Part shown: positions 1,658 through 39,392 of the stretch, piece after piece
Position numbering within the stretch: the first letter of the stretch is position 1
Layout of the letters: every line of letters starts with the position of its first letter
DNA from: Acidobacteriota bacterium
GTDB taxonomy: Bacteria > Acidobacteriota > Terriglobia > Versatilivoradales > Versatilivoraceae
Assembly (NCBI GenBank): GCA_028875575.1
Contig: JAPPDF010000016.1
Location: 1 to 44,901, forward strand
Direction: 5' to 3'
Length of the DNA: 44,901 nucleotides
Made by a program: the position numbers and the translations under genes
The notes under the pieces: model-generated
What the model was told of the DNA's origin: nothing
The model's database searches: none
Seen by the model: only the letters and a program-made list of their open reading frames with translations

Positions 1658-4015
<2,358 letters not shown>

Positions 4016-4339
4016 GTCGATTGGCTCCTGGAGAAATGGCAACGATACCCTGGAATTCAGACCCGCGGATCCCGCCTCGGATCGGTTGCGAGGGCGGTGG
4101 GGAGGGGGGCGGCTGAACCAGGGGACCCCATACTACTGGATTGCGCACCTGAGGCCAACCGGGATTGTCCTGTTCGGACTCAGGATAGCTCCAACCACCA
4201 GATAACCCCCCGGAGGGGGCGGGGCTGTGATAGATTCTGCACTGACCGCAGGGTGGCGCTCGACATTATCCAACGGTCGGGGCGGCCCGGTTGTGGTCAA
4301 TGAATTGAGCCAGAAAGCGATCATGGAGGAGCGTTTCAG
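4016..4339. other. Divergent intergenic region
   Basis: This 324-bp gap separates the minus-strand fusion gene from the plus-strand RidA lipoprotein gene and must hold both promoters. I could not find a convincing -35/-10 pair. Several open frames cross it, but they lack ribosome sites and family resemblance. Confidence 0.5.
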
Positions 4340-6657: not shown

Positions 6658-6686
6658 TTGACTGGTGACACCGCCAGGTATAAAAT
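6658..6686 (+). promoter_or_regulatory. Sigma70-type promoter for the DUF1549/DUF1553 gene
   Basis: TTGACT at 6658-6663 and TAAAAT at 6681-6686 are 17 bp apart and lie in an AT-rich stretch. The predicted transcript would begin near 6693, about 60 bases before the chosen ATG at 6757. This argues against an upstream ATG at 6658, which lies inside the promoter. Confidence 0.6.
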
Positions 6687-6756
6687 GCGAATGCATTTAA
6701 AAGTAGATTTCGCAAATTTTCTGGACGCTTGCCGCGGCAAGTGGTTTGGGGGTTGT

Positions 6757-9600: not shown

Positions 9601-9618
9601 GCGAAGGAGTTCCTTCGC
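9601..9618 (+). other. Intercistronic hairpin
   Basis: GCGAAGGAGTTCCTTCGC is a perfect inverted repeat (7-bp stem, 4-base loop) directly after the DUF1553 stop codon and 25 bases before the DUF1501 start. No T-run follows, so it is not a typical terminator. It could set relative expression or mRNA stability within the pair. Confidence 0.5.
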
Positions 9619-9642
9619 AGCCTGCGAAAGAGTGGGGCACTG

Positions 9643-19303: not shown

Positions 19304-19688
19304 GGTGCCTCCTGAAACTCTATGGGTCTGGAATGGACCTCGAATCTGTCTCATTCGGGTGTTGCATACACCTTAAAGATCTTTTACTCGCGTATTAAGC
19401 TGCAATTTGATTGCCAAAGCTCCAAGGAGGGCAAGAAAAGTGTAAGATATTCATTTTAAGTCGTTTATGGTCGACTTTGACTTCGGTGCCCGTACTCGTG
19501 TCCGGATTCAATCTACGAGATTTTGAAGTGGCGTCCTGCCTCTTTGGCAAATCGTTGTCGAAATAAGCAACAAGTCTCATGAAATGAGTCACTTAATTTC
19601 CAATAGGCCCGAATACGAAAATACGGATCAAAATACCGGCCACTTCGGGATTGTGAACTGTTTCGGAGGATGAACCAACCCATCCTTA

Positions 19689-22396: not shown

Positions 22397-24160
22397 ATGG
22401 GGAAGCGTCCACCAATGGATCGGTTGCCGAATTTCACCCGTGGACACAGGTGGCGGGGCACGCTGGCTGCCGTCGCGGCGGTTGTCCTCGCTCTCGTGTG
22501 GGGAGGGGCTGAATTACCGGCCTGGCCCGACCCGCCATCTCCCTTTCACGACAACCGGGCCGCCGCCGGCATTGATTTCCGGCACCAGCGGGGCGCTTCC
22601 GACCAGAAGCACCTGGTGGAGACGGTCGGCTCGGGATGCGCCCTGTTCGACTACGACAGCGACGGGTGGTTGGATATTCTGCTGATCAACGGAGGCCTTA
22701 CGCCCGAGTCCACCGCCGCCGGGCCGGTTCGCCACGCGCTCTATCGCAACCTGGCTAACGGTCGTTTCCAGGACGTGACCGCCAAGGCGGGGTTGGAGGG
22801 AAACGGCGCCTTTGGCATGGGCGTTGCCGTGGGCGACTACGACAACGACGGGGACCGCGACGTCTATATCACCAACTTCGGACCCAATGGGCTCTATCGC
22901 AACAACGGAGACGGGACCTTCAGCGACGTCACGGCCAAGGCCGGCGTCGATTGTTCCGACTGGAGCACCAGCGCCGCCTTCTTCGACATGGACAATGACG
23001 GCGACCTGGACCTCTACGTGACCAATTACCTGGAGACCAGCTTTGAGACCAATCCCCTCTGCGAGTTGAAGAACATCCGGACCTACTGTTATCCGGGCCA
23101 CTACGACGGTGTCGGCGACAGGCTCTACCAAAACCTGGGCGGCGGCCGTTTCCGGGACGTGTCGGAAGCCAGCGGGATCCTCAACCCGGAGGGCAAGGGT
23201 CTGGGGGTGGTGGCGGCCGATTTCGACGATGACGGCTGGATTGACCTCTATGTCGCCAACGACACCGTCAGAAATTTCCACTACCAGAACAACCGGCAGG
23301 GCGGATTCGAAGATATGACCCTGCTTTCAGGCACCGGCTACAACGAGGAGGCCAACGCTGAAGCGGGAATGGGCACCGACGCGGCCGACTATGACGGGGA
23401 TGGCCTGATGGATATCGTGGTGACCAATTACGACATGGAGACCAACGCCCTCTACCGCAACCACCAGGACTGGCTGTTCACCGATGAACGGGCCTCCTCC
23501 GGGGTCACCCGGGGAGATCGGTTCCTGCTGGGGTTCGGCACCGGTTTTTTCGATTTTGACAACGACGCGGATCAGGATCTTCTGGTGGTCAACGGGCACG
23601 TCCTCGACAACGTCGAGCAAGTCCAGTTCGGCTTTCGCTACGCTCAGCCCGACATGCTGCTGGAGAACCGGCAGGGCATATTCCAGGAACACGCGGACTT
23701 CTCCCGGCAGGCGGGACTGGAGCCGCGGGTCGGCCGCGGTTCCTGTTTCGGAGATCTGGACAACGACGGTGACCTGGATATCCTGGTCAACAACTGCGGA
23801 GGTCTGCCTCATCTCCTTGTGAACCAGGTGGGGAGCCGCAAGAACTGGATCCTGCTGAACCTGATCGGTTCCCGCAGCAATCGGGACGGCGTGGGAACCA
23901 GGATCGAGGTGACGACCGCCGCCGGCCGGCAGATCGACCAGGTGATGGGAGGCGGAGGGTATCTGGGAGCCAGTGACCTGCGGGCTCACTTCGGTCTGGG
24001 TGCCGCCGACCGGATCCAATCGCTGCGGATCCGTTGGCCCGGGGGAACCGAAGAGGTGTATCGGGATCTTGAGGTCAACCGCATTCTCACCATCAGGGAA
24101 GGAGCTGGGAAGGTAGAGGTCATGCGGGCATCACGGCCGGCCGGGACGGTCGAGCCATAG
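22397..24160 (+). CDS. CRTAC1-like protein with VCBS/FG-GAP repeats and ASPIC/UnbV domain
   Basis: The 587-aa product has a signal or anchor segment at about 20-42 and FG-GAP/VCBS repeats from about 75 to 470 (YDSDGWLDI, YDNDGDRDV, MDNDGDLDL, FDDDGWIDL, YDGDGLMDI, FDNDADQDL, LDNDGDLDI). An ASPIC/UnbV domain is at about 495-570 (SRSNRDGVGTRIEV, GGGGYLGASDLRAHFGLG). It is the compact form of the family, with no N-terminal helical domain. It follows the larger paralogue by 15 bp and is very likely co-transcribed with it. Role: extracellular calcium-stabilised propeller, probably adhesive or assembly-related. Confidence 0.92.
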   Translation: MGKRPPMDRLPNFTRGHRWRGTLAAVAAVVLALVWGGAELPAWPDPPSPFHDNRAAAGIDFRHQRGASDQKHLVETVGSGCALFDYDSDGWLDILLINGGLTPESTAAGPVRHALYRNLANGRFQDVTAKAGLEGNGAFGMGVAVGDYDNDGDRDVYITNFGPNGLYRNNGDGTFSDVTAKAGVDCSDWSTSAAFFDMDNDGDLDLYVTNYLETSFETNPLCELKNIRTYCYPGHYDGVGDRLYQNLGGGRFRDVSEASGILNPEGKGLGVVAADFDDDGWIDLYVANDTVRNFHYQNNRQGGFEDMTLLSGTGYNEEANAEAGMGTDAADYDGDGLMDIVVTNYDMETNALYRNHQDWLFTDERASSGVTRGDRFLLGFGTGFFDFDNDADQDLLVVNGHVLDNVEQVQFGFRYAQPDMLLENRQGIFQEHADFSRQAGLEPRVGRGSCFGDLDNDGDLDILVNNCGGLPHLLVNQVGSRKNWILLNLIGSRSNRDGVGTRIEVTTAAGRQIDQVMGGGGYLGASDLRAHFGLGAADRIQSLRIRWPGGTEEVYRDLEVNRILTIREGAGKVEVMRASRPAGTVEP

Positions 24161-25150: not shown

Positions 25151-25290
25151 GCAGTGGATAGTGATCAGTGGATAGTGGCTAGCCCTGCCTCGGCCCTGCC
25201 GGGCGGATCATAAGGGGTGAAACAGGGTGTTTTGGGATGCCTAACGTGTCGATCAAGATACTCTCCACTAACCACTCTCCACTCTCCACT
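25151..25290. repeat. Inverted-end element overlapping a gene start
   Basis: The left end is a GTGGATAGTG-type head followed by the GCCCTGCC/CGGATCAT core shared with 5560-5636. The right end (25259-25290) has CTCTCCACTAACCACTCTCC-type units, which are the inverse of the head. The element starts 3 bases after a stop codon. It runs through the ATG at 25237 and about 18 codons of the next gene. Confidence 0.6.
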
Positions 25291-27657
25291 CTTCTTGGGA
25301 TTGCCGCGCTGTTGGCTGCCTGCGTCGTCCTGATCGAGCAGGGTGCCGGTTTCCAGGCCTCGGAGACGGATGCGGCTCCCGGGTACGTCGACCCGCAAAC
25401 CTGCCAGCCCTGCCACGCCGAGATCTTTCTAAACTACCAAAAGGTGGCCATGGGCCGCTCCTTTTACAAGCCCACCACCGAGAACGCCGTCGAAGACTAT
25501 ACGACCGACAACCATCTCTTTCACGCACCTTCCAATCGCCACTACCGGATGGTGCAGCGCAATGGCAAGTTCTTCCAGAGACGCTACCAACTGGACGATC
25601 AGGGCAGGGAAAAGAACGTCTTCGAACTGGAAGTCACCCACATCATGGGTTCCGGCAACCATGCCCGGACCTATCTGAACCTGGCCGAGAATGGTGTGCT
25701 GCGGCAACTGCCGGTGAGCTGGTATTCCCAGGGCAAGGGCTGGGGGATGAGTCCGGGGTACGACCATGCCCGCCACGACGATTTCCGCCGGCGGGTCGGT
25801 CACTCCTGCATGTTCTGCCACAACGGCTATCCGCGGCTTCCCGAGCCCAGCGACCGCTACGGGCAGCAGAGCCGTTTCCCCGGGAATCTGCCCTCGGGCA
25901 TCGACTGTCAGCGCTGCCACGGTCCCGGTTCGCGGCATGTGAATCTGTTGTCGAGCGGAGAGGCGGCTATGGAGGCGGTTCGCGCGGCCATCCTCAATCC
26001 GGCCCGTTTGAGTCCGGAACTCCAGATGGACGTCTGTATGCAGTGTCACGTGCAGTCCTCGCTGGGCAACCGGGGAGACCGGGTCCGACGGGCCGGGCGT
26101 TCGGTCTATTCCTTTCGTCCCGGAGAGTCGCTGGATGACTACATCGTGCACTTCGACCTGGTGGGACCCGATCCCGGCAGGTCTACGGACCGGTTCGAGA
26201 TCGACAGCACTGCCTATCGGTTGCTCCAGTCAAGCTGTTTCCTGGAGAGCCGGGGAGCCATGACCTGCAGCACCTGCCACGATCCCCATCGGACTCCCCG
26301 GGGGCCGGAAGCCGTTCGACATTTCCGCGACCGCTGCATGAGCTGCCATCCCAGCCTTTCAGGCGAGGTCCATCCTCGACCGGCTCAAAGCGATTGCGTG
26401 CCTTGCCACATGCCCAGGCGGCGGACCGAGGACGCGGTCCATGTGGTGATGACCGACCACTGGATTCAGAGCCGTCCGCCCCAGCGGGACCTGCTGGCCC
26501 CGCTTAAGGAAGACCATAGGCCGCATGAAGGGGCGGTGGTTCTGAACGATCCGGAGGCACTCCCGGCATCGGACAGGGAGATCTATTGGGGGTTGGCCCA
26601 GATCCAGTCGCCTTCCCACCTCGGGCAGGGACTGACCAAGCTCAAGGCCCGCTTGAGCCCGGAGACCTCCTCTCACCCGGAATTCTTTGCCGAATGGGGC
26701 AAAGCTCTGCTGGAGGCCGGCCAACGTGACGCGGCCGAGGTTCGGTTGCGCCAGGCCCTGCAGATGGATTCCAGCATGGTCACTGCCCGCACCAGGCTGG
26801 CGGACATGCTGAGAGAGCAGGAGAAGTGGAACCAGGCCATCCGCCACTACCGGCTGGCCCTGGCAGCCGATTCCACCTATGGAGAAGCCGAAATCGGTTT
26901 GGGACTCATCGCGAAGGGACAGGGACAGATTGAATCTGCCATCGCCCACTTTCGCCGGGCAGTGCAGCACAACCCCTTTCTGGCCGAGGGCTTTGCCAAC
27001 CTGGGGACGGCCTATATTCAGCAGGGGGAGTGGAACCGGGCCGTTCAAGAGCTTGAGAAAGCCTTGAGCATCGAACCGGCCAGCGCCGAGGCCTACCTCA
27101 ATTTGGGGACGGCCCTGTCCAGGTTGGGCCGGCAACCGCAGGCCCTGGGGGCCTTCGCCGAGGCGATTCGCCTCAACCCGGACCTCTCCAAGGCTCACTA
27201 CAGTCTGGGCCTGGCGCGGGCACGGTCCGGACAACCGACACAGGCGATCGAGGCATTCCGCCAGGCCATCCAACTCAACCCCGCGGACGCCGACTATCAT
27301 TACAACCTGGGGGTGGCCCACAACGAGCTGGGACAATTGGAAGAGGCCCTGTCGGCGTTTCGGGAAGCCGTCCGGCTGAGGCCGGAAGATGCCGAGGGTC
27401 ATTCCAGTCTCGGCCTGGCCTATGCTCAACTGGGTCGGCTGCCCGAGGCCCTCGAGGCCTTTCAAAAGACGGCCTCCATCCGGCCCAACGATCCCGAAGT
27501 CCGGTTCTTTTTGGGAATGGCCCATCTCACGCTGGGGAACAGGAAAGAGGCCCTGCAGGAGCACGAGATCCTGAAGCGCCTGGGCGCACACCGGAGGGCG
27601 GGAATGCTGAAGGACCAGCTCGACCGGCAGAACCCCGGCGATTCGCCTCAGGATTAG
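25237..27657 (+). CDS. Heptahaem cytochrome c–TPR fusion protein, copy 1
   Basis: The 806-aa exported protein carries seven CxxCH motifs: CQPCH 56, CMFCH 191, CQRCH 224, CMQCH 267, CSTCH 344, CMSCH 367 and CVPCH 387. A beta-rich insert lies between the first two (QRRYQLD, GSGNHARTYLNL, LPVSWYSQGKGWGMSPGYD). About nine TPR units fill 480-790 (AEAYLNLGTALSRLGRQPQALGAF). The N-terminal half resembles cytochrome c554-type multihaem domains; the TPR half should bind partner proteins, so it could hold a haem wire within a larger envelope complex. The hydrophobic segment 18-40 is the signal or anchor. The ATG at 25237 has no strong ribosome site and lies inside a dispersed repeat, yet no better start exists before the signal segment. 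Confidence 0.9.
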   Translation: MPNVSIKILSTNHSPLSTLLGIAALLAACVVLIEQGAGFQASETDAAPGYVDPQTCQPCHAEIFLNYQKVAMGRSFYKPTTENAVEDYTTDNHLFHAPSNRHYRMVQRNGKFFQRRYQLDDQGREKNVFELEVTHIMGSGNHARTYLNLAENGVLRQLPVSWYSQGKGWGMSPGYDHARHDDFRRRVGHSCMFCHNGYPRLPEPSDRYGQQSRFPGNLPSGIDCQRCHGPGSRHVNLLSSGEAAMEAVRAAILNPARLSPELQMDVCMQCHVQSSLGNRGDRVRRAGRSVYSFRPGESLDDYIVHFDLVGPDPGRSTDRFEIDSTAYRLLQSSCFLESRGAMTCSTCHDPHRTPRGPEAVRHFRDRCMSCHPSLSGEVHPRPAQSDCVPCHMPRRRTEDAVHVVMTDHWIQSRPPQRDLLAPLKEDHRPHEGAVVLNDPEALPASDREIYWGLAQIQSPSHLGQGLTKLKARLSPETSSHPEFFAEWGKALLEAGQRDAAEVRLRQALQMDSSMVTARTRLADMLREQEKWNQAIRHYRLALAADSTYGEAEIGLGLIAKGQGQIESAIAHFRRAVQHNPFLAEGFANLGTAYIQQGEWNRAVQELEKALSIEPASAEAYLNLGTALSRLGRQPQALGAFAEAIRLNPDLSKAHYSLGLARARSGQPTQAIEAFRQAIQLNPADADYHYNLGVAHNELGQLEEALSAFREAVRLRPEDAEGHSSLGLAYAQLGRLPEALEAFQKTASIRPNDPEVRFFLGMAHLTLGNRKEALQEHEILKRLGAHRRAGMLKDQLDRQNPGDSPQD

Positions 27658-27719
27658 GTCGGATTACTTACACTGGCGGACACTCGGAAGTGGGGATAGA
27701 ACACGGAGATGATGCAGGG

Positions 27720-27932
27720 GAATTTTCTATCCCCGGGCAGTGTTGTGGGTTAGGAGAGAGCTGCGAAGCTGCGGTAGGAGTGGGTAGGTCGAGCAAACGC
27801 CTACTACGAGCCTTCCTTATAGAGCAGCGTAGCTGCGGCTCAGGGTAGCCCCGGGCGGGAGCCCGGGGTCGTTGGATTCCGGCAACCCTGCAGCCGCGAA
27901 GCGGCGGATCAGTGGCGTCCGTCGGGAACGCA
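27720..27932. repeat. About 213-bp direct repeat, copy 1
   Basis: Shared with 39410-39624 in the same orientation at clearly high identity. Common blocks are GAGAGCTGCGAAGCTGCG, GAGCAGCGTAGCTGCGGCTC and AGGGTAGCCCCGGG. It contains a strong CCCCGGG/CCCGGGG hairpin. Both copies lie just after a heptahaem-TPR gene. This 311-bp gap holds no gene. Confidence 0.8.
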
Positions 27933-27969
27933 CCGCTTCTCCAAAGAAACGTTAAACACGTATCAAGGT

Positions 27970-30822
27970 GTGAGTGTATTGGGCGGCCCTGCGCCACTCT
28001 TGAGGAACGTTGGTTTGAGAAAAGCCGATCTTCAGAGGCACCGCAGTTCGTGGCGGTATCCATCCGCCGGATTGCTCTGGACTCTCGCCACGGTAGTGGC
28101 CTGGGCTGTCCTGGCAGGGCAACAGACCGTCTTCAAGGCTTCGAAGCCGGACGCCCCCGCCGAGTATGTCGACCCGCAACTCTGCCAGCCCTGTCACTCC
28201 GACATTTCTGACAGCTACCAAAAAGTCGCCATGGGCCGCTCATTCTATCTCCCCTCGGCGGAGAACGTCATCGAGGACTACAAGGTCAACAACCACTACT
28301 ACCATGAGCTCTCCAACCGCCACTATCGGATGCTTCAGCGCGACGGGCGCTTTTACCAGAGGCGCTACCAACTGGATGCCCAGGGGCGGGAGCACAACGT
28401 CTTCGAGATGGAGGCCACCCACATCATCGGCTCGGGAAACCACGCCCGCAGCTATCTCAATCTGGACGCCGGCGGCGTGCTGAGGGAACTGCCGGTGAGC
28501 TGGTATACCCAGGAGCAGCGCTGGGCCATGAGTCCGGGCTACGACAGGCCCGACCATGAGGATTTCAGCCGGCAGGTGACTCATGCCTGCATGTTCTGCC
28601 ATAACGCCTATCCGCCCCTTCCGGAACCGTCGGATCGTCTTGGGCTCGACAGCCGTTTCCCCCGGGAACTGCCGTCGGGGATCGACTGCCAGCGCTGCCA
28701 CGGCCCCGGAAGCCGTCACCTGGAGATGGTTTCCAGCGGCAGGGCGGATGCGGCCGACATCCGCCGGACCGTTGTGAATCCGGTCCGTCTGGGACCCGAA
28801 CGGGAAATGGAGGTCTGCATGCAGTGCCACCTGCCGGTGGCCACGGCCGGCCCGCATATCCAGCGCTTCGGTCGTTCGATCTACTCCTACAGGCCGGGCG
28901 AGCCCCTGGCGAATTACTCTGTCCGGTTCGACCTGGTCGATCCCAAGACAGGGGAGTTGAGCGAGCGGTTCGAGGTGGACAGCAGCAGCTATCGCTTGCG
29001 CCGGTCGCCCTGCTTCATCCAGAGCCGGGGAAAGATGACCTGCACCACCTGCCACGATCCCCATCACGCTCCCCGCGGGGAGAAAGCGGTGCGGCACTAT
29101 CGGGAACGTTGTATGGACTGTCACGCCGAGGTGTCGCCCGAGGCCCATCCACAGCCCGGAGAGAGCGATTGCGCGAGCTGCCATATGCCCCAGCGCCGCA
29201 CCCAGGACGCGGTTCACGTGGTGATGACCGATCACTTCATCCAGCGCCACCCTCCCCAAGAGGACCTGCTGGCGCCCCTCAAGGAAGACCACTCCCCCAA
29301 GCCCGACGGGGTGGTGTTGCACCAGCCGGATGCGTTGCCCGATTCGGAACGGGAAATTTACCGGGGATTGGGACAGATTCGGTCCCCGGCCCATTCTGCC
29401 CGGGGGGTGGACCGGCTCAAGCTGGCCCTTCCACGATGGCAGGGGACCAGTCCTGAACCCTATCTTCAGTTGGCCCTGGTGCAGGTGGAGTCGGGGGACC
29501 TGGATCAAGCCGGAATCCATCTGAGAAAAGCCCTGGAGGCCGATCCGGAGCTGGCGCCCGCCCGCTTTCAACTGGGGGAGGTGCTGAGGCGGCAGGGCCG
29601 TCCGGACGAGGCGGCCGAGCAATACCGGCACGCCCTTCGCCTCAAACCCGGCCACGCCGCCGCCCACAACGGCCTGGGACTGATCCTGAAGGAGCGACAA
29701 CAGATCGAGGGGGCGCTGGAACACTTTCGACTGGCTGTGCGCAGCGATTTTCTTTCGGCGGAAGCGCATGCCAATTCAGGAACCGTTTTTCTGCAGCAGG
29801 GTCAGGTTGAAGAAGCCACCCGGGAGTTTCATCGCGCTTTGCAGATCGAACCCAATAACCCCGGGGTATACCGCTCGCTGGGGGTGGCTCGGGCGGGGGT
29901 GGGCCGACACCGGCAAGCGGTCAGCGCTTTCCGGCAGGCCATCTCCCTCAAGCCGGATGACGCCGAAGCCCACTACAACCTGGGTCTGTCCCAGAACGAG
30001 CTGGGGCGGCGGGAGGAAGCCATCCAGGCCTTCGAAAAAGCCATCGACCTCAGGCCGGACTATGCCGAAGCCCATTCCAGCTTGGGAGTAGCCTATGGCC
30101 AAACAGGGCGCTTGCCGGAGGCGGTGGAAGCCTTTCGGCAGGCGGTCAGGATCGAACCCGACTACGGCGAGGCCTATTCCAACCTGGGTCTGGTTCTGGG
30201 CCAATTGGGGCGATGGCGGGAGGCTGCAGAGGCCCTGGCTCAAGTGGTCCGCATCGATCCGGAGGACGTCCAAACCCGTCTGAAACTGGGTCTGGCTTAC
30301 GGCCAGGCGAGGCAATTCCCGCAGGCGGTGGAGTCCTTCCAGAAGGCCATCGAGGTCAAGCCCGACTTTGCCGAAGCCTACTCCAACCTGGGGGCGGCCC
30401 TCGGCCAACTGGATCGGCACCAGGAAGCCAGTGAAGCCTTCAAGGAAGTCGTGCGCCTGCAGCCCGATTCATTGCAGGCTCACCTTCGTCTTGGAACGGC
30501 CTACGTGCAAACGGGGCGATTGCCGGACGCCATCCAGGCTTTTCAAGGAGCCACACGCATCAAGCCCGACCTGGTGCAACTGCACCAGTTCATTGGGGAA
30601 GCCCATGCCCAGTTGGGACAGCCGCGCCAGGCCATCCCCGCCTTCAGGCAGGTTCTTCGTCTTCAGCCCGGCAACGCCGAGGCCCGCCTTTATCTCGGGC
30701 TGGCCCATCTGGCGGTAGGGGACAGGGCCTTGGCCCTGGAGCAGTACGGCAAACTGAGAGATCTGGATGAAGCCAAGGCGGCAGAGTTGATGGAGCAGAT
30801 CAACCGGCAACCGGCTCCCTGA
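27970..30822 (+). CDS. Heptahaem cytochrome c–TPR fusion protein, copy 2
   Basis: At 950 aa this is the longest of the three paralogues. A hydrophobic segment at about 33-50 is the signal or anchor. Seven CxxCH motifs have the same spacing as copy 1: CQPCH 72, then CMFCH, CQRCH, CMQCH, CTTCH, CMDCH and CASCH, each about 16 residues later than its counterpart. The beta insert (QRRYQLD, GSGNHARSYLNL, WAMSPGYD) is conserved. The TPR array runs from about 490 to 940 with roughly 13 units, at least three more than in copies 1 and 3; several are near-identical (YAEAHSSLGVAYGQTGRLPE), so the array probably grew by unit duplication. The GTG start at 27970 is uncertain. It lies 312 bp after copy 1 in the same direction. 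Confidence 0.9.
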   Translation: MSVLGGPAPLLRNVGLRKADLQRHRSSWRYPSAGLLWTLATVVAWAVLAGQQTVFKASKPDAPAEYVDPQLCQPCHSDISDSYQKVAMGRSFYLPSAENVIEDYKVNNHYYHELSNRHYRMLQRDGRFYQRRYQLDAQGREHNVFEMEATHIIGSGNHARSYLNLDAGGVLRELPVSWYTQEQRWAMSPGYDRPDHEDFSRQVTHACMFCHNAYPPLPEPSDRLGLDSRFPRELPSGIDCQRCHGPGSRHLEMVSSGRADAADIRRTVVNPVRLGPEREMEVCMQCHLPVATAGPHIQRFGRSIYSYRPGEPLANYSVRFDLVDPKTGELSERFEVDSSSYRLRRSPCFIQSRGKMTCTTCHDPHHAPRGEKAVRHYRERCMDCHAEVSPEAHPQPGESDCASCHMPQRRTQDAVHVVMTDHFIQRHPPQEDLLAPLKEDHSPKPDGVVLHQPDALPDSEREIYRGLGQIRSPAHSARGVDRLKLALPRWQGTSPEPYLQLALVQVESGDLDQAGIHLRKALEADPELAPARFQLGEVLRRQGRPDEAAEQYRHALRLKPGHAAAHNGLGLILKERQQIEGALEHFRLAVRSDFLSAEAHANSGTVFLQQGQVEEATREFHRALQIEPNNPGVYRSLGVARAGVGRHRQAVSAFRQAISLKPDDAEAHYNLGLSQNELGRREEAIQAFEKAIDLRPDYAEAHSSLGVAYGQTGRLPEAVEAFRQAVRIEPDYGEAYSNLGLVLGQLGRWREAAEALAQVVRIDPEDVQTRLKLGLAYGQARQFPQAVESFQKAIEVKPDFAEAYSNLGAALGQLDRHQEASEAFKEVVRLQPDSLQAHLRLGTAYVQTGRLPDAIQAFQGATRIKPDLVQLHQFIGEAHAQLGQPRQAIPAFRQVLRLQPGNAEARLYLGLAHLAVGDRALALEQYGKLRDLDEAKAAELMEQINRQPAP

Positions 30823-30867
30823 GGCTTTCCCCGGAAGTCCGACCCCGCCTGAAACAACCTGAAAAAG

Positions 30868-30890
30868 TTATCCACGAAGGGGAACGAAGC
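30868..30890. repeat. Partial CCACGAAGG repeat
   Basis: TTATCCACGAAGGGGAACGA matches the start of the repeat at 24198-24295. It sits in the convergent gap 30823-31005, which also holds a short GCCGCC/GGCGGC stem but no T-run. Confidence 0.4.
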
Positions 30891-31005
30891 GGGGCGGTTC
30901 CGCCGCATCGGCAGGACTGCCGCCCGACAAGGCGGCGCCCCCCTCGAGGAGCAAGAGTGATGGGTGGCCTTCATCCCGTGACGTCGTGACACCAAGGGGA
31001 CAAGA

Positions 31006-32403
31006 TCAATGCACCAGGCGGGAATTGGGGAACTGGTTGTGCCAGCCGAACCAGAAAGCCCGATGGGCGGGAAGCCGCAAGCGTTTCTCTCCGGCTTTGT
31101 TGGTAAGGGCCTCCTCGCTGACCGACCAGGATTGCCTGCGGCTGTCGGTCAGCCTGGCCTTGCGGTTCCAGCGGGTGAAGGTCACTCCGGTGGCGTCGTA
31201 GACCCGGTTGGCTCCCGACCGGTCGGTCAGGATGACGAGCGCCCTTTTGCCCACCCGGTCCTGATAGAGCGGGTTCTCTCCCAGGAAGTCGGTGTCATAA
31301 GCCACTGCCTCTCCCTCCAGCAGCAGGGCCACTACCTCCTGTTTGTTGCTTAGCCTGCTGTCCCGATAGCGGACTGGAAACATGAGTTCTTGAGTCGCGA
31401 AATAGGCGCGGTAGGCCACGCCCTCGCCATAATCCCGCCGGTGGCCGGTTTCCAGGGAGAGCACGCGGGTTCGGGGGTGGCTCTTTCTCCAGGCGTTCCA
31501 GGTGGTGGTCACGATGGGAAGCCGTTTCAGCTTCAGTTCGGACTCCACCAGCTTGCCGGTGACGGGAACCCCTTCCAGGGCCGACCAGAGCGAGCGGGTC
31601 TGGCGATCCCACATCAATTTGTTGGAGCGGAAGAGAAAGCCGCTGGTCCCGAAATCGAACTGCCGCTTGCCGATCCGCTGGTCGTAGAGAACGGCTGACC
31701 CGCACAGGGTACAGTAGGCGCAGGTGACGTCCATGCCGCCCACGGTGTCATTGAACAGCTCGTGCCAGGCCAGGATGCGCTTGGGATAGGCTTTGGCTTC
31801 CCCGTTGAGGTATACCCCGAAAATCACGTCGGTCCCGTCCAGATAGGCTGCCTCGCCGGCTTCGATGAACCGGGGATGCTCCAGAGGGGGGATGCCGTCC
31901 ACCTTCACCCCGCCCCACACGATCTCGTCCAGGCGGATCGTATGCTTCATGCCCGGATAGAACCACCAATGAAACCGCTCGTCGATGGGGGCGTGGATTT
32001 CTGCCTTGAAGGCCGGATAGAAGGGATGCATTTCGAAATCCTGTTCCCACACCCACTCCATCATGGGGTATAGATCCCGATCCACATCCTGGCCGGTCTT
32101 TCTCTCCAGCAGGTCCCACAACTTGCCTGCCGGGGTCTCGTCGTCGAACAGAATTTCCTGGCGCGGGGCGAAAAAACGCAGCGTTTCCACCACCATGGGA
32201 GCCAGGCTCATCTCCCATTCGGCCTCGAAGGCTTCCAGAGCCCCTTCCTTCTGGTCCAGGAAGTCGAACAGGTACTGCACCACCTGCTTTTGACGCTCGG
32301 TTCCCTGGGGAGTTTCTCCCCCGGGCGGGGTCGCGGAGGCCCCGGCCAGGTGCAGACTCAGCAGGACAGCCAACAGTGCCAAAGTGAGGGTTTTTGCCGA
32401 CAT
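31006..32403 (-). CDS. DUF3179 domain-containing exported protein
   Basis: The 465-aa product has a signal peptide (about 5-23) and a DUF3179 domain over roughly the C-terminal two thirds. Family marks are the cysteine cluster CAYCTLCGS (Cys228, Cys231, Cys234 in this numbering) followed by FGTSGFLFRSNKLMWDRQT and LWSALEGVPVTG. DUF3179 is a widespread extracytoplasmic family without an assigned function; the cysteine cluster suggests metal or haem binding, but that is inference. The ATG at 32403 follows GGAG by 5 bases; the longer frame to 32466 lacks a site. It converges on the end of heptahaem copy 2. Confidence 0.9.
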   Translation of the reverse strand: MSAKTLTLALLAVLLSLHLAGASATPPGGETPQGTERQKQVVQYLFDFLDQKEGALEAFEAEWEMSLAPMVVETLRFFAPRQEILFDDETPAGKLWDLLERKTGQDVDRDLYPMMEWVWEQDFEMHPFYPAFKAEIHAPIDERFHWWFYPGMKHTIRLDEIVWGGVKVDGIPPLEHPRFIEAGEAAYLDGTDVIFGVYLNGEAKAYPKRILAWHELFNDTVGGMDVTCAYCTLCGSAVLYDQRIGKRQFDFGTSGFLFRSNKLMWDRQTRSLWSALEGVPVTGKLVESELKLKRLPIVTTTWNAWRKSHPRTRVLSLETGHRRDYGEGVAYRAYFATQELMFPVRYRDSRLSNKQEVVALLLEGEAVAYDTDFLGENPLYQDRVGKRALVILTDRSGANRVYDATGVTFTRWNRKARLTDSRRQSWSVSEEALTNKAGEKRLRLPAHRAFWFGWHNQFPNSRLVH

Positions 32404-32788
32404 GCCTGCTCCGGAGCGATGGGATATTCTCATATTGCACATTTCGAGATTGAAAGCCAGTCCCAAGTAGGGGCGGCCTGGCGGGTTGCATTGCTTCCGG
32501 AAGGCGAGGGCTGATGCGGTTGAGGGATTGTAGGCTGCCAGGCAGTGGAATCGATATCTATTTCATATTTAACATCGATGCACAGGATTAACAGGATGTG
32601 AGGGTGCTGCACCCGAAGCCGACTCGGGCGATGAACCGGTGCGGATTTGCGGACGTTCAGGATTTCAAGCTGGCCGTTTCCTGAAAAAATCCTGTGCATC
32701 CCGTGCATCGATGTTAATTGTTCATTCGAAAAAATTCGACCATCCGATGGTGTAAAATAGAAAACGATATTATTCCTTTTCTTCAGTC
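32404..32788. other. Divergent intergenic region
   Basis: The 385-bp gap lies between DUF3179 (minus) and the VWFA gene (plus). It contains a fragment of the window-end repeat (32503-32519) and a complete MITE-like element (32569-32717). Then comes an AT-rich stretch with TAAAAT at 32753-32758 and a CCATCCGATGG palindrome, which may belong to the VWFA promoter. No matching -35 box is clear. Confidence 0.55.
32569..32717. repeat. MITE-like element with TTAACATCGATGCACAGGAT ends, copy B
   Basis: This 149-bp element begins TTAACATCGATGCACAGGAT and ends ATCGATGTTAA. Its ends form an inverted repeat of about 28 bp with only a few mismatches. The interior is related to copy A at 19689-19850. It has no coding capacity. 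The inverted repeat is better preserved here than in copy A. Confidence 0.75.
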
Positions 32789-35191
32789 ATGGGTCGAATG
32801 AAGATGCATCTACGGACTTGGCTTCGGCTCTGTGCCCTTTTGCCAGCCATCGGGCTGACAGTGGCCTTGTGGGCGCCCATTCCAGTGTCGGCTGCTCCTG
32901 ACGAACAGGAGCCGAATTCCGACAACTCATCTTCAGCTTTCACCTTCAGGGTCCCGGTGAACGTGGTGCTGGTGAACGTCACCGTTACCGACAGGGCCGG
33001 GAGGCCGGTCAAGGACCTGACCGTTGAGGACTTCAAGCTCTTTGAGGACGGCAAGCGCCAACGGATTCAAAGCTTCGAAGTGGAATCCAGTCAACTGGAG
33101 TCCCGGACGGATCCGACCGGGGAGGGAACGGCCCCGCCCACTCCCGGCGCGCGGGTTGCAACTCAAGAGGCAGAAGACCGCACCCGGCTGATCAGCTACT
33201 TCATCGACGACCTGACCGCCCGTTCCCCCAGGTACTTTTTCTGGGTCGTATCCGCATTGCAGAAGTTCATTGCCGAGGAGATGGGGCCTGAGGACCAGGT
33301 GGGCGTCTTTTCAGCTTCAGGACGCGTCCGAATGCCCTTCACCAGCGACCGCAAGCTGCTCCGGGAGCGGATCGAGGCCCTCCACGTCGGGAAGTTCTAC
33401 CTGTCCCGCCCCTACCGCAGCCGCTGCCCGGTCATGACCGACGTGCAGGTGATCCGGATCGTGGACGGTCACCGGGGAATCGATTTCACCCGGGCCTTCA
33501 GGGAGGCCAGCAGGTGCGCTGAAGTGAGGGATCTGGACCCGGGCGACATCGAACAGCACGTTCGCGCCGAAGCCTTTCACCAGTACTCGGGAGCCCAGGG
33601 GGCTATTCAGAGGCTGGTGGCCGCACTGCGCCATCATGTCCAGACCCTGCAGCATTTTACGGCGAGCAAATCCCTGGTTCTCTTTTCCGACGGATTCGTC
33701 CCGACGCGTTCCATGCGCTGGAGGCTGGACCGGGTCGTGGGTCGCGCCCTGCGCTCCCGGGTCGCCGTCAACGTGGTGGACATTCGCGGACTCCATACCG
33801 TCGGCTTCGAGGCCGCCAACAACGACCAGGTCAGAAACCTGACCGGCGAGCCAATCAGCCAGGAGGACTTCAACGCGGGCTTGACCATGGGTAGGGAATT
33901 CTCCGATCTCTACCGCGACCAGACCTATCAGCGCCGCCCCCTGGAGAAACTGGCCGAGGAAACCGGCGGCGTCCTGTTCACCGACAACAACGACCTGGTG
34001 TCGGGCCTCAGCCAGATCAGCAATACCCAGTCCTATTACTATGTGCTCTCTTACGCTTCCCCCGATCAGAAGGCCGACGGAAGATACCACAAGATCCGGG
34101 TGGAAGTGGACCGGCCCACCGTGGAGCTCAGCTACCGCCGGGGATACTTTGCGCCCCGGAAAACACTCTCCCTGGAGGATCGCAAGAACGAAGATATTCA
34201 ACTGGCCCTGACCGCCCCGGGAAATTTCGACCAGATTCCGCTGCAACTGGACTACCGTTCTTCCCCGACCCGGGACGACCGCCACCGCCTGAAAGTCTTC
34301 ACCAACGTCAGTATCGCGGGGATGCCCTTTCGGCAGGAGGGAGAACGGCGCCAGAATCTCCTCCACCTGGTGCTGATGGTCTACGACCGGGACGGCCAGC
34401 AGGTGGAAGGGTCTCAAAAGACCATCGAGCTGAGTCTGGGCGAATCCAGCTACCGCTCCATGCTCCAGCGCGGCTTCACCACCCGGACGGAGTGGGAGGT
34501 TCCCGCGGGCGAATACAATGTCAAGGCGGTGGTCAGAGAAAGCCACCGGACCCGGATGGGGTCCCTCGACGAGACGGTCACGCTGCCCATTCCCCAGAGT
34601 GCCCGGGTTGCCCCGCAATCTCCAGCTGACCTCGGGGTTGCAGAAGCGGATGAACCCACCCTTCCCGAGGAGTTCGTACGCTCGGAATCGGTGGAACCGA
34701 CGCCGGCGGACGAAGACCCGGATCCATCCCTGCCCGCGGGTGGTCTGGAGAGCAGCCAGTTGGTGCTGACCCAGCAGCTCACGCCGCTGGCCGATCTGAG
34801 CGCCGAGCTGCAGGCCAGTTTGCTGGAGGGCGGGGAGGCCGTGATCTTCGGGGACGTCCAGATTCATCTTCCGCTGGACGACCGGATCGACCGCCAATAC
34901 CCGGTCACCTTTTTCTATACCCTCTTCAACCTGATGTATCCCCAGGAGAGCCAGGGGATGACAGCCAAGATTCAACTGACCGACCGCTGGGGCAAGGTCA
35001 GCCGGTTTCCGCTGATCACCTTGAGCGAAGGTCAAGTTGAACCCCTGGAAGAAGGCGCCGTGAATGTAGCCTTCAACCTGTCTTTCAAGAACGTTGAGCC
35101 CGGCCAGTACAAGCTGACGCTGATGACCCGGGCGCCGGGAGCCAGCGGCCAGTCGGTCGGCGCCCGGACCACGGTGACGGTTCTCCAATAG
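32789..35191 (+). CDS. VWFA-related exported protein, acidobacterial type
   Basis: The 800-aa product has a signal peptide (about 10-36) and then the opening typical of the acidobacterial VWFA-related family: VNVVLVNVTVTDRAGRPVKDLTVEDFKLFEDGKRQ split over residues 57-92. The VWA core spans about 130-430 (RLISYFIDDL, ASKSLVLFSDGF, VAVNVVDIRGLH), followed by YYYVLSYASPD and SYRRGYFAPRK, the family's usual close. The MIDAS motif is not the standard DxSxS (FIDDLTARS). The C-terminal 340 residues are a family-variable, probably beta-rich region. Members are secreted or envelope-bound and thought to bind proteins. This family is a good taxonomic marker for Acidobacteriota. Confidence 0.92.
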   Translation: MGRMKMHLRTWLRLCALLPAIGLTVALWAPIPVSAAPDEQEPNSDNSSSAFTFRVPVNVVLVNVTVTDRAGRPVKDLTVEDFKLFEDGKRQRIQSFEVESSQLESRTDPTGEGTAPPTPGARVATQEAEDRTRLISYFIDDLTARSPRYFFWVVSALQKFIAEEMGPEDQVGVFSASGRVRMPFTSDRKLLRERIEALHVGKFYLSRPYRSRCPVMTDVQVIRIVDGHRGIDFTRAFREASRCAEVRDLDPGDIEQHVRAEAFHQYSGAQGAIQRLVAALRHHVQTLQHFTASKSLVLFSDGFVPTRSMRWRLDRVVGRALRSRVAVNVVDIRGLHTVGFEAANNDQVRNLTGEPISQEDFNAGLTMGREFSDLYRDQTYQRRPLEKLAEETGGVLFTDNNDLVSGLSQISNTQSYYYVLSYASPDQKADGRYHKIRVEVDRPTVELSYRRGYFAPRKTLSLEDRKNEDIQLALTAPGNFDQIPLQLDYRSSPTRDDRHRLKVFTNVSIAGMPFRQEGERRQNLLHLVLMVYDRDGQQVEGSQKTIELSLGESSYRSMLQRGFTTRTEWEVPAGEYNVKAVVRESHRTRMGSLDETVTLPIPQSARVAPQSPADLGVAEADEPTLPEEFVRSESVEPTPADEDPDPSLPAGGLESSQLVLTQQLTPLADLSAELQASLLEGGEAVIFGDVQIHLPLDDRIDRQYPVTFFYTLFNLMYPQESQGMTAKIQLTDRWGKVSRFPLITLSEGQVEPLEEGAVNVAFNLSFKNVEPGQYKLTLMTRAPGASGQSVGARTTVTVLQ

Positions 35192-35821
35192 CAGGTTTCC
35201 CGGACCATATTCACAAACAAGTCAAGCCCCCGCCCTGCCGGACGGATCATTCGAGAGTGGAACAATGGACCCCTTTGGCCCTATGAAAAGGAAGAGAAGC
35301 CGGTGCGCAGCAAGCGGATGCCCACCCGGGAGCGCGGGCGTCCCGCCCGCACCACACTGGCAAGGACTCGCCCATCTCCTCCACCCGGCTCGACCGGCAA
35401 CGGCGTCAGGACTCTGCCTCGGCCGAGCCCATGCCATTCCCGCCGGCAGAGTGGCCGGGTGCTGCATCGCAGGGAAACTGAGCGGCACGCAACGGGATAG
35501 CATGCGGGCGGGACGCCCGCGCTCCCGGGAAAAGGCCGATCAGGCGCCTTTGCTCCGCGATCCAATATGCGATCCAATATTCCCTAAAGCGGCACAGGGT
35601 GCTATGATTGCAAAGCGAAGATATCAACGAAAATGGCAGCGGTCGGAGGGACCTTCCTTTCAGATTGGGATTCCTGAGGCAGGGTGGCAGCAGGATCCGG
35701 GAGCCCAAGGTTAAAAGCGGAGCCGTCACTAGGTAGGTGCTCATTGTCGTCGTCGCCGCCGACCCCGATAGTGCCATCAAGATCTCCGGATGCCTAAGGC
35801 ATGCCGGGAACAGGAGGTCAC
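35192..35821. other. Long repeat-rich intergenic region
   Basis: At 630 bp this is one of the two longest gene-free gaps, together with 19304-19975. It holds a partial GCCCTGCC/CGGATCAT repeat (35222-35265) and an element with 26-bp inverted ends (35325-35529). A frame of 149 codons crosses it from 35265, but it reads through both repeats, has biased composition and matches nothing, so I do not call it. Confidence 0.65.
35325..35529. repeat. Element with perfect 26-bp terminal inverted repeats
   Basis: The left end (35325-35350) begins CCCGGGAGCGCGGGCGTCCC; the right end (35504-35529) is its exact reverse complement over 26 bp. The 153-bp interior has no convincing ORF. A single related end is at 13148-13168. 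This looks like a small non-coding mobile or structural element. Confidence 0.8.
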
Positions 35822-36940
35822 ATGTCACGACTGGTCAAGTCTTCAGGGTTGCCGCTACTGGCGGTGGCGCTCTTCGGCCTGGTCGCCCCCGAGGTTTGCG
35901 AGGCTCAGAGGGCGCAGGTTATGGGACAGGTCAAGGGGGTCGACGGCAAGCCTCTGAAAGGCGCCGTGATTCACATTGACGACACCCAGACCGTGCGTAA
36001 GTTCACGGTCAAGACCAACAAGAAGGGGCGCTACTTTCACGGAGCCATCCCTCTGGGTTACTACCGGGTCAGCGTGCAGGTGAACGGCACGGAGATGCAC
36101 GCCGTGCCCAACGTGAGGATCTACCGAACCAAGCGGCCCGGCGACACCTTTGCCTATGACGCCGAGCCGGTCAAGGTGGACTTCGATCTCCAGGCGGTCG
36201 CCAAGTTGAAAAAGAAGCGTCAGGAGGCCCTGGCCAAGCGCTCGGCCGCCGAAATCGCCGCCGACCGCGCCAAGGAGGAAGAGCGCAAGTTCGGCCACAT
36301 GAACGACGAGTTCAGGAAGGGCCGGGAACATTTCCATGCCAGGCGCTACCGGCAGGCTCTGCAGGCCTATGTCCGGGCGGCCGAGATGGACCCGCGGCAG
36401 CACATCATATTTGCCGAGATGGGGGAGGCGAATCGGGCCTTGCGGAAATACGACGATGCCATCAATAGCTACCAGAAGGCTCTGACGGTTCTGGCTCAGA
36501 ACCCCGACTCCAAGGTGGGAGCCAAGTATCAGATGAATCTGGGCCTTTTGTACGGCCTGATGGACCAGACCGATCAAGCTCTTGCGGCCATCAACAAAGC
36601 CCTGGAATTAAACCCCGGAAACGCGGACCTGGCCTATTTCAACCTGGGAGCAACCCTGGTGAACAGCGGGCGAAACGAGGGGGCCATCGCCGCCTTCAGG
36701 AAGGCCATCGAGGCCAATCCCGACCACGCCAATTCCCAGTATCAGTTGGGGGTCTGCCTGCTGGGAATGGCCACGGTGGACGAACAGGGAAGGTCCATTC
36801 CGCCTCCGGGAACCCTGGAGGCCTTCAAGAAATACGTGGAGTTGGAACCTTCGGGTCCCTATGCCGCCGAAGCCAACAACATGATCCTGGCGCTGGCGGC
36901 TCAGGTGAAGACCACCTTCGACGCCAAGAAGGACAAGTAG
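35822..36940 (+). CDS. Exported carboxypeptidase-regulatory-domain / TPR protein
   Basis: The 372-aa product (ATG with AGGAGG upstream) has a signal peptide (about 9-29). A carboxypeptidase-regulatory-like beta domain spans about 33-115 (VMGQVKGVDGKPLKGAVIHI, KKGRYFHGAIPLGYYRVSVQV). A charged helical linker follows at about 125-165 (KLKKKRQEALAKRSAAEI), then TPR repeats at about 170-300. The combination of a regulatory domain and TPRs is common in exported acidobacterial proteins and suggests a scaffold. It is 67 bp upstream of heptahaem-TPR copy 3 on the same strand, so the two may form a unit. Confidence 0.88.
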   Translation: MSRLVKSSGLPLLAVALFGLVAPEVCEAQRAQVMGQVKGVDGKPLKGAVIHIDDTQTVRKFTVKTNKKGRYFHGAIPLGYYRVSVQVNGTEMHAVPNVRIYRTKRPGDTFAYDAEPVKVDFDLQAVAKLKKKRQEALAKRSAAEIAADRAKEEERKFGHMNDEFRKGREHFHARRYRQALQAYVRAAEMDPRQHIIFAEMGEANRALRKYDDAINSYQKALTVLAQNPDSKVGAKYQMNLGLLYGLMDQTDQALAAINKALELNPGNADLAYFNLGATLVNSGRNEGAIAAFRKAIEANPDHANSQYQLGVCLLGMATVDEQGRSIPPPGTLEAFKKYVELEPSGPYAAEANNMILALAAQVKTTFDAKKDK

Positions 36941-37007
36941 ATAGGCCGGTCAGCTGTATCCGCCTGCCTCTGCCGCGACTGATGGCGTTCGCCCGGGGTG
37001 GTCCCTA

Positions 37008-39392
37008 GTGCCCTTCCTGGAAATGACGCTTCCGGAACTTGCCCGCCGAATGGGTTGGGTGGGACTGGGTATGGTCTGCCTGGTCTGGCTCTGGCCCTGG
37101 GCCGGCCACTCCCGATCCGGCCAAAACACCACCGACTCCCCTCTCTCCTCCCAGGTCTGCCAGTCCTGCCATGCAGAGATCTACCGGAGCTACGCCGAAG
37201 TGGCCATGGCCCGGTCCTTCTACCGTCCTTCTCCGGACAACGTGATCGAGGACTACACCCGGGAGAACCACTTCCACCATGCGCCCTCCAATCGGCATTA
37301 CCGGATGGTGCAACGGGAAGGGCGCTTCTACCAGAGGCGATACCAGTTGGACTCCGACGGAAACGAGAATAACATCCTGGAACGGGAGGTGGCCTGGATC
37401 ATCGGTTCGGGCGAGCATGCCCGCAGCTATCTGAGCCTGGATGAAGGAGGGGTGCTGCGGCAGTTGCCGGTGACCTGGTATCCGCAGATACAGCGCTGGG
37501 GGATGAGCCCCGGCTACGACCGTCCGGACCACGAGGACTTCGGCCGCCAGGTCACTCACTCCTGCCTGTTCTGTCACAACGGCTATCCCCAGCTCCCCGA
37601 AACCTCGGACCGCTACGGCCAACGGAACGTTTTCAGGAGCGAGCTGCCCTCCGGCATCGGTTGCCACCGTTGTCACGGCCCGGGCGCCGATCACGTGAAG
37701 CTGGCATCAAGTGAAAGGGCCGCGGTCGGACAGATTCGTCAATCCATCGTCAATCCGGCCAGGCTGAGCCCTGAAAGGCAGCTGGACGTCTGCCTGCAAT
37801 GTCATCTGGAAGCAGCAGCGGCGGCTCCGCGGTTCAGACGGTCGGGCCGGCAGGTTTTTTCCTTCAAGCCAGGCGAGTCCCTGGCGGATTACATCGTCCA
37901 CTTCGATCTTGGCGATCCTGACACGGAGGCCCCCCCCGATCGATTCGAGATCGACAGCGCCGGCTACCGGATGCGTCAGTCTGCCTGTTTCCGCCTGAGC
38001 GAGGGTGCTCTGACCTGTACCACCTGCCACGACCCCCACCGCAAGCTGCGGGGGCAAGAGGCCTTAAGGCATTACCGGGAACGCTGCCTCAGTTGCCACA
38101 ACCAACCCTCGACCGCCGTCCACGGAGAGACGCCTCCCGGCGATTGCACCGCTTGTCACATGCCCAGGCGGCGGGCTCAGGACGTGGTGCACGCGGTCAT
38201 GACCGATCACTTGATTCAGAGGGGACCTCCGAACCGGGATTTGCTGGCGCCACTCAAGGAGGACCATTCTCCCAAAAAGGAGCAGCCGCTTTTGTACTTT
38301 CCCCAGTCGCTGTCCGACTGGGAACGAAATCTCTATCTGGGGATGGCCGAGGTGCAGACTCCGGGAAATCTGAGGCAAGGCCTGGACCGGCTGACGGCAA
38401 CCCTGGAGCGAAAGAGCGCTGCTTTCGCCGAGCCCTACGTCAAGTTGGCCATGGCTCAGGCTGAGACCGGGGCCTACGATGCGGCTCGGGTCAGCCTGAA
38501 ACGAGCGCTGGACATCGATCCCGGCAGCTCCATAGCCCGTTTCAACCTGGGCGAGGTGATGAGGCGACAGGGTCAGTTCGCCCCCGCCGTCGAGCAATAT
38601 CGGAGAACTCTGGCGGTCGACCCCAACTATGCCAAGGCACATTTGGGGCTGGGGCTGGTCAACCGGCAGCAGGGCCGCCCGGCCATGGAGTCTTTCCGGC
38701 AGGCCTTGCGGTCCGATTCGCTGCTGGCAGAGGCCCACCTTGGTCTGGGGCGGGAGTCCCTGGAGCGGCGACGGGCAGCCGAAGCCGCCGGCCATTTTCT
38801 GCGTGCCCTCCAGGTCGACCCGGACAGTGCCGAAGCCCACCTGAACCTGGGGTTGGCCCAGGCGCGGCAGGGCCTTCAGCAAGAAGCCCTGGCGGCCTTT
38901 CGGCAGGCTGCCGCGCTGGATCCCGCTTCCCCCGAAGCGCACTACAACCTGGGGGTGGCTCTGGCCCGGAAGGGCCGCATCCGGGAGGCCTTGCCGTTCT
39001 TCCGGCAGGCGGTCCGCCTGAAGCCGGAGGACGCAGAAGCCCAATCCAACCTGGGAATGGCCTACAGTCAGTTGGGCCGGCTGCAGGATGCCGTTGCGGC
39101 CTTCCGCCAGGCCGTGCGCCTGCGGCCCGATTCCGCCAGGGCCTACGTCAACCTGGGCCTGACCGAGGCCCGCCTGGGCCGCACCGGGGAGGCTATCGAG
39201 GCTTTGTCCCGAAGCGCGAGCCTCTCTCCCCGCAATGCCGAAGTCCGGCTCAACCTGGGCCTGCTCTACCTGAGCGCAGGCGACAGGACCTCGGCGCTGG
39301 AGCAGTACGAGGTTCTCAAGGAATTGGACCCGGAACGAGCCAAGGTGCTGGCGGATCGCATTCGCGAACGAGATCCGGCAGGGCCACCCTAG
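37008..39392 (+). CDS. Heptahaem cytochrome c–TPR fusion protein, copy 3
   Basis: The 794-aa product (GTG start at 37008; the ATG at 37023 is an equally good start) has a signal or anchor segment at about 15-33. Seven CxxCH motifs match the order of copies 1 and 2: CQSCH 51, CLFCH, CHRCH, CLQCH, CTTCH, CLSCH and CTACH. The beta insert is kept (QRRYQLD, GSGEHARSYLSL, GMSPGYD). The TPR array occupies about 465-785. Its end (LSAGDRTSALEQYEVLKELD) is closer to copy 2 than to copy 1. It lies 6.2 kb from copy 2 and is preceded by a regulatory-domain/TPR protein. An approximately 215-bp repeat follows, as after copy 1. Confidence 0.9.
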   Translation: MPFLEMTLPELARRMGWVGLGMVCLVWLWPWAGHSRSGQNTTDSPLSSQVCQSCHAEIYRSYAEVAMARSFYRPSPDNVIEDYTRENHFHHAPSNRHYRMVQREGRFYQRRYQLDSDGNENNILEREVAWIIGSGEHARSYLSLDEGGVLRQLPVTWYPQIQRWGMSPGYDRPDHEDFGRQVTHSCLFCHNGYPQLPETSDRYGQRNVFRSELPSGIGCHRCHGPGADHVKLASSERAAVGQIRQSIVNPARLSPERQLDVCLQCHLEAAAAAPRFRRSGRQVFSFKPGESLADYIVHFDLGDPDTEAPPDRFEIDSAGYRMRQSACFRLSEGALTCTTCHDPHRKLRGQEALRHYRERCLSCHNQPSTAVHGETPPGDCTACHMPRRRAQDVVHAVMTDHLIQRGPPNRDLLAPLKEDHSPKKEQPLLYFPQSLSDWERNLYLGMAEVQTPGNLRQGLDRLTATLERKSAAFAEPYVKLAMAQAETGAYDAARVSLKRALDIDPGSSIARFNLGEVMRRQGQFAPAVEQYRRTLAVDPNYAKAHLGLGLVNRQQGRPAMESFRQALRSDSLLAEAHLGLGRESLERRRAAEAAGHFLRALQVDPDSAEAHLNLGLAQARQGLQQEALAAFRQAAALDPASPEAHYNLGVALARKGRIREALPFFRQAVRLKPEDAEAQSNLGMAYSQLGRLQDAVAAFRQAVRLRPDSARAYVNLGLTEARLGRTGEAIEALSRSASLSPRNAEVRLNLGLLYLSAGDRTSALEQYEVLKELDPERAKVLADRIRERDPAGPP

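Follow-up and report, generated by a model that had tools for sequence, protein, structure and literature searches.

Heptahaem–TPR proteins of Acidobacteriota, an apparently undescribed variant among MccA/OcwA-like multihaem proteins

Cytochrome c554, OcwA (structure entry 6i5b), and MccA all have their active site at haem 2, and haems 1–4 of OcwA superpose on c554; an extra beta-sheet domain is found in MccA and OcwA only, while other NrfA-family proteins lack it (PMC6703420). A window of 44,901 nucleotides, the whole stretch of acidobacterial DNA that was analyzed (contig JAPPDF010000016.1), encodes three proteins in which a heptahaem core, a distant relative of characterized sulfite and metal reductases, is followed by an array of TPRs. 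This combination is real, conserved, and common in Acidobacteriota, and it is apparently undescribed: a literature search for heptahaem–TPR fusions found no paper describing them.

Three heptahaem–TPR proteins and their haem cores

The three genes are on the forward strand, with hep1 at 25237–27657 (806 amino acids), hep2 at 27970–30822 (950 amino acids, with the longest TPR array of the three), and hep3 at 37008–39392 (794 amino acids). The preliminary description had reported seven CxxCH motifs in a common order and spacing, and this was confirmed by the motif positions: residues 56, 191, 224, 267, 344, 367, and 387 in hep1; 72, 207, 240, 283, 358, 381, and 401 in hep2; and 51, 186, 219, 262, 337, 360, and 380 in hep3. 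Seven such motifs in ~390 residues, in register in three proteins, cannot be chance. By motif count, the haem-binding region of hep1 extends over 25402–26409 (+), within a haem half of residues ~44–440. The haem halves of hep2 and hep3 share 62–64% identity with that of hep1 (~395 columns), and dN/dS values of 0.15–0.21 for the haem halves of all three against their orthologues indicated purifying selection.

The AlphaFold2 model of hep1 (pLDDT 89.5, pTM 0.86) included a helix at residues 15–34, which may be a signal or an anchor, and a mostly helical haem region. Between haem 1 and haem 2, the model and the alignment placed a beta insert of eight strands at residues 93–171 (25513–25749, +). 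The conserved insert of the preliminary description was thereby recovered, and its motifs QRRYQLD (inside the insert) and MSPGYD (at its end) occur in hep1, hep2, and hep3. About ten helix pairs were modelled as TPRs at residues 444–797 (26566–27627, +, from Pfam and AlphaFold2). In the Pfam scan, the TPR arrays of the three proteins, with their 34-residue helix pairs, scored far over the cut-offs and were unequal in length, as had been described.

A structure-database search with a 47-row profile of haem domains matched MtrA of entry 6r2q (E 8e-21), OcwA (6i5b, E 3e-20), 6qvm (E 5e-15), MccA (4rkm, E 1e-11), and c554 (E 2e-9), followed by NrfA; we take 6r2q to be the MtrCAB entry and 6qvm to be OmhA. 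The matches to OcwA, MccA, c554, and NrfA (E 3e-20 to 1e-3) had their haem motifs in order. The OcwA match was colinear across haem 1, haems 2–4, and haems 5–7, that of c554 was colinear across haems 1–4, and that of MccA covered haems 1, 2–3, and 5–7. The haem half falls into the NrfA/c554/MccA/OcwA superfamily by its motif order and by sequence similarity near the motifs and distal ligands, and the predicted strands 93–171 correspond to the additional beta-sheet domain that the MccA/OcwA branch has between its first two haems. The order H1-beta-H2-H3-H4-H5-H6-H7 fits OcwA haems 1–4 plus 6–8, or MccA haems 1–7, and this core looks like an OcwA/MccA-type plan minus haem 8, with TPRs replacing the three-helix bundle. 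A whole-domain Pfam or NCBIfam model for the haem half was not found, with just weak C7, c3, and decahaem hits. When the full heptahaem model was used for a fold search, the 50 matches listed were all TPR proteins; the TPR part swamps such a search, and the connection between the haem half and OcwA and MccA therefore rests on the sequence profiles and the position of the insert.

Candidate haem ligands were counted in 47 haem-domain sequences (hep1 numbering). Among histidines outside the motifs, H234, H351, and H408 were each present in all 47 and H402 in 42. Position 72 (25450–25452, +) was occupied by Met in 41 sequences, His in four, and Lys in two; all three residues can bind haem iron, a pattern consistent with a position that supplies a distal ligand. 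The four His cases were proteins without a TPR tail, and His also occupies this position in OcwA and most octahaem proteins. Cys334 (26236–26238, +), a non-motif cysteine ten residues before haem motif 5, was invariant (47/47); it was counted as a ligand candidate, although it may serve another role. By this count, six conserved candidate distal ligands (H234, H351, H408, H402, M72, and C334) stand against seven haems, and the 47 sequences offered no conserved spare residue for the seventh distal site. By homology with c554, OcwA, and MccA, whose active site is an open haem 2, the likeliest open haem is again haem 2. Counterparts of OcwA's distal His-His motifs were not found in the heptahaem proteins.

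Octahaem relatives, distribution, and origin

The window also encodes an octahaem relative at 13838–15727, a probable lipoprotein of 629 amino acids (LLAAC, lipobox-like) with eight CxxCH motifs and a helical C-terminus. A gene on the forward strand was ruled out by in-frame stops, which assigns it to the reverse strand, a point left unstated in the preliminary description. That description had noted a haem and insert order shared with the heptahaem proteins, and the hhalign comparison upheld this (probability 100%, E 5e-64, 348 columns), with an alignment spanning haem 1 through haem 7, beta insert included, and one extra haem in the octahaem protein after the CHMP motif. From this alignment, homology of the octahaem protein to the heptahaem core is regarded as certain. 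The "HEAT-like" end that had been attributed to it was not confirmed: no Pfam HEAT match was found in its C-terminus, and the predicted model was poor (pLDDT 60), with a fold search from this poor model giving nothing below E 0.001. Pfam did identify true HEAT repeats in another octahaem protein of the source genome (locus L114, 7304–14024, −, contig G000:C46), in which HEAT repeats and then TPRs come after the octahaem core, and which adjoins a DUF1501/PSD1 pair. Together with the long N-terminal extensions in L103 and L111, this HEAT and TPR arm suggests that repeat arms were probably grafted onto haem cores more than once.

In a survey of the phylum with a 12-row profile (E 1e-30 or better), the heptahaem core was found in 77 of 396 sampled Acidobacteriota genomes and in 47 of 211 genera. 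The preliminary description had proposed a search for the architecture across Acidobacteriota, and the TPR fusion proved to occur in many families of the phylum and also in other phyla. Outside the phylum, five records, four from Bacteroidota and one from Planctomycetota, had the core with a long C-terminal part; two of them (L027 and L029) were scanned with Pfam, and TPRs were confirmed in both. Haem spacing was near-constant among relatives, at about 134, 32, 43, 74, 23, and 22. Heptahaem relatives without TPRs also exist, with 391–405 amino acids. Related records were Acidobacteriota metagenome bins, presumably from sponge symbionts as read from isolate names, and no relatives were found in viral contigs.

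In a tree of 72 haem domains, hep1, hep2, and hep3 each grouped with their own orthologues from genomes of the genus, and the three sets together formed one clade (100/98). This pattern indicates a triplication inside this acidobacterial lineage, and on the evidence of the tree hep1–hep3 are paralogues that arose within it. The octahaem relatives formed one branch (99/96) in this tree, which was built without the HEAT/TPR-armed octahaem proteins of L114 and L035/L036. A tandem array at the DNA level from recent duplication of TPR units was not found.

Gene neighbourhood and genome context

The genes around hep1–hep3 have a conserved order within the genus (L010, L014, and L020). An outer-membrane beta-barrel protein (OMP_b-brl_4 with CarboxypepD_reg; 16010–19354, −) is followed by a CRTAC1-type protein with FG-GAP repeats and UnbV/ASPIC (19976–22381, +), a second CRTAC1-type protein (22397–24160, +), an unknown gene, hep1, hep2, a DUF3179 protein (31006–32466, −), a VWA-domain protein (TIGR03436, acidobacterial VWFA; 32789–35191, +), a carboxypeptidase-regulatory-like and TPR protein directly upstream of hep3 (35801–36940, +), and hep3 itself. 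Synteny of this block was confined to the genus, and CRTAC1 and DUF3179 were kept as neighbours only there; a conserved neighbourhood beyond the genus was rejected for CRTAC1, DUF3179, and VWFA.

The preliminary description had proposed a survey of co-occurrence with CRTAC1 and DUF3179 genes, and the comparison with other genera did not support either as a partner. TPR-type and shorter genes were separated by profile score rather than by measured TPR count. At least one of the 23 TPR-type genes from other genera had a CRTAC1 gene (UnbV/ASPIC) within 10 kb (0.6 expected); among the relatives that are shorter or lack TPRs, at least 12 of 31 did (1.2 expected; Poisson P ~8e-9, a rough value, as related genomes are non-independent). 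The observed counts are lower bounds from 150 of 325 CRTAC1 places, and the expected counts derive from all 325. Outside the genus, CRTAC1-linked cytochrome clusters were a property of the shorter relatives and not of the TPR type. The 20-kb stretches that were read agreed with these counts, with CRTAC1 near two of 37 TPR-type and seven of 11 shorter genes; DUF3179 was near none of the 37. No substrate-specific neighbour gene was conserved beside the family.

The CRTAC1 link of shorter relatives is strong at L103 and L104, where the heptahaem gene abuts or overlaps a same-strand CRTAC1 gene, close to genes for a barrel protein and a further multihaem protein. Additionally, a second cytochrome/CRTAC1 island of the source genome is located at ~60–113 kb of contig G000:C3 (L121, L122, and L113). 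Here, four CRTAC1 genes are clustered in 40 kb, accompanied by an octahaem gene whose product is 53% identical to its paralogue in the window, a heptahaem gene without TPRs, and a pentahaem gene. In other bacteria, CRTAC1 genes are located beside hydrazine-synthase-like genes, which encode different proteins (PMC12758564).

Elsewhere in the window, a planctomycete-type pair of a PSCyt1/PSCyt2/PSD1 protein and then DUF1501 (6658–11097, +) has counterparts beside several heptahaem genes of other genomes (L076, L077, and L108). In a single reverse-strand open reading frame (1658–4042), a class III aminotransferase domain comes after an amidohydrolase domain, and a 395-amino-acid protein with a lipoprotein-like start contains three RidA/L-PSP stretches (4340–5527, +).

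The source genome, with an estimated completeness of 100%, contains three Cytochrom_C_asm matches, indicative of System I-type cytochrome c maturation, and no match for ResB-type maturation. It encodes a haem-copper oxidase. The MtrB/PioB porin (PF11854), the one porin type that was searched, had no match in the genome; an Mtr/Pio-type conduit was not recognized, and the extracellular electron transfer route suggested in the preliminary description is left unsupported. The one NapC-type gene adjoins an HAO-like octahaem gene: at L120 (G000:C35:33000-48000), 8451–10529, a NapC/NirT tetrahaem gene is directly beside that of a 478-amino-acid octahaem protein with Multi-haem_cyto (PF13447) and sub-threshold similarity to hydrazine dehydrogenase. 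From their domains, the pair looks like an HAO/ONR-type enzyme and its quinol dehydrogenase.

Competing explanations and the closest known systems

The best explanation is that hep1–hep3 are exported multihaem oxidoreductases of the MccA/OcwA plan docked through their TPRs, to which we give about an even chance. Such an enzyme would consist of haem 1, the beta-sheet domain, haems 2–4 in a c554-like block, and three further haems, with haem 8 absent and a TPR superhelix where the C-terminal three-helix bundle would be. The packed haems would conduct electrons towards haem 2 or away from it; the distal side of haem 2 is probably open and could bind a small ligand or substrate. The TPR arm may attach the enzyme to a periplasmic or membrane-bound partner. 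More tentatively, the proteins might constitute an unnamed, widespread enzyme family of Acidobacteriota, in which the TPRs hold a heptahaem core of the MccA/OcwA type in a complex with a partner. This core would combine an open haem 2, Met ligation at a haem for which relatives have His, and an invariant extra Cys, and it would catalyze an undescribed redox reaction.

A non-catalytic wire for extracellular electron transfer, anchored by its TPR half to an envelope scaffold that includes the CRTAC1 propellers, is possible though rather unlikely. The nearest solved relatives include the MtrA wire as well as the surface reductases OcwA and OmhA, and two CRTAC1 genes and the outer-membrane barrel gene are adjacent in this genus, while shorter relatives cluster with CRTAC1. 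However, the neighbourhood argument was lost with the rarity of CRTAC1 and DUF3179 near TPR-type genes of other genera, the genome has no MtrB/PioB match, and its haem-copper oxidase means that extracellular acceptors are not required. As the closest structural relatives include reductases of the cell surface (OcwA and OmhA) as well as periplasmic enzymes (MccA and NrfA), a simple wire is not the preferred interpretation. It is improbable that the TPR half serves as a built-in chaperone for maturation or assembly, acting in haem attachment, as TPR proteins of cytochrome c biogenesis do, or in oligomerization, with the haem half as the sole working part. The TPR halves scored 62 and 104 bits on the CcmH/CycH TPR model (cut-off 42), and standalone heptahaem proteins indicate that the haem domain can manage without a partner-binding arm; yet TPR models cross-match freely, with dozens of TPR families, so this score is unspecific, and the array is far longer than a chaperone needs. 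Least credible, and by our estimate very improbable, is a redox or gas sensor in which the haem half responds to redox state or a ligand and signals to a partner through the TPR arm. One haem without a conserved distal ligand and a protein-binding arm would suit this role, but seven haems exceed the need of a sensor, and no recurring regulatory gene was observed beside the family in the stretches read, where most neighbours were unannotated.

Met72, Cys334, and haem 2 are concrete targets for deciding between an enzyme and a wire. The haem domain occurs in about one-fifth of the sampled Acidobacteriota genomes, yet it has no whole-domain Pfam or NCBIfam model. The architecture extends the known module swapping of the NrfA superfamily, in that a helical bundle is exchanged for a protein-binding arm.

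The heptahaem–TPR proteins are seemingly an unnamed variant of MccA/OcwA-kind multihaem proteins. OcwA, the nonahaem cell-surface reductase of Thermincola potens, was the best colinear profile match and shares haem 1, the beta-sheet domain, haems 2–4 with CHGPGxxH, and then, in matching order, the CHxxH and CHMP haems. Identity with OcwA was rejected, as OcwA has nine haems, a second open haem (haem 5, without a counterpart in the colinear alignment), a three-helix bundle, and an aligned His at Met72 of hep1, in contrast to seven haems and TPRs. The octahaem sulfite reductase MccA/SirA shares the haem order and the extra beta-sheet domain, and its haem number equals that of the window octahaem protein; the heptahaem proteins differ from it in the lack of haem 8, in counted motifs that are all plain CxxCH, and in TPRs where MccA has its helical bundle, which excluded an MccA identity. 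Cytochrome c554 of Nitrosomonas (1BVB) corresponds in the tetrahaem block 1–4 and the CHGPG motif, but it has no beta insert, later haems, or TPRs. The pentahaem nitrite reductase NrfA resembles the heptahaem proteins in the CHMP haem region and in general superfamily features; an NrfA identity was rejected, since they have seven CxxCH motifs with His at all aligned places instead of a CxxCK motif, more haems, a beta insert, and no helical bundle. Octahaem proteins with HEAT/TPR arms, from the same genome (L114) and from Colwellia/Alteromonas (L035/L036), likewise have a related core followed by a repeat arm, while they differ in having eight haems and, in L114, HEAT repeats that precede the TPRs.
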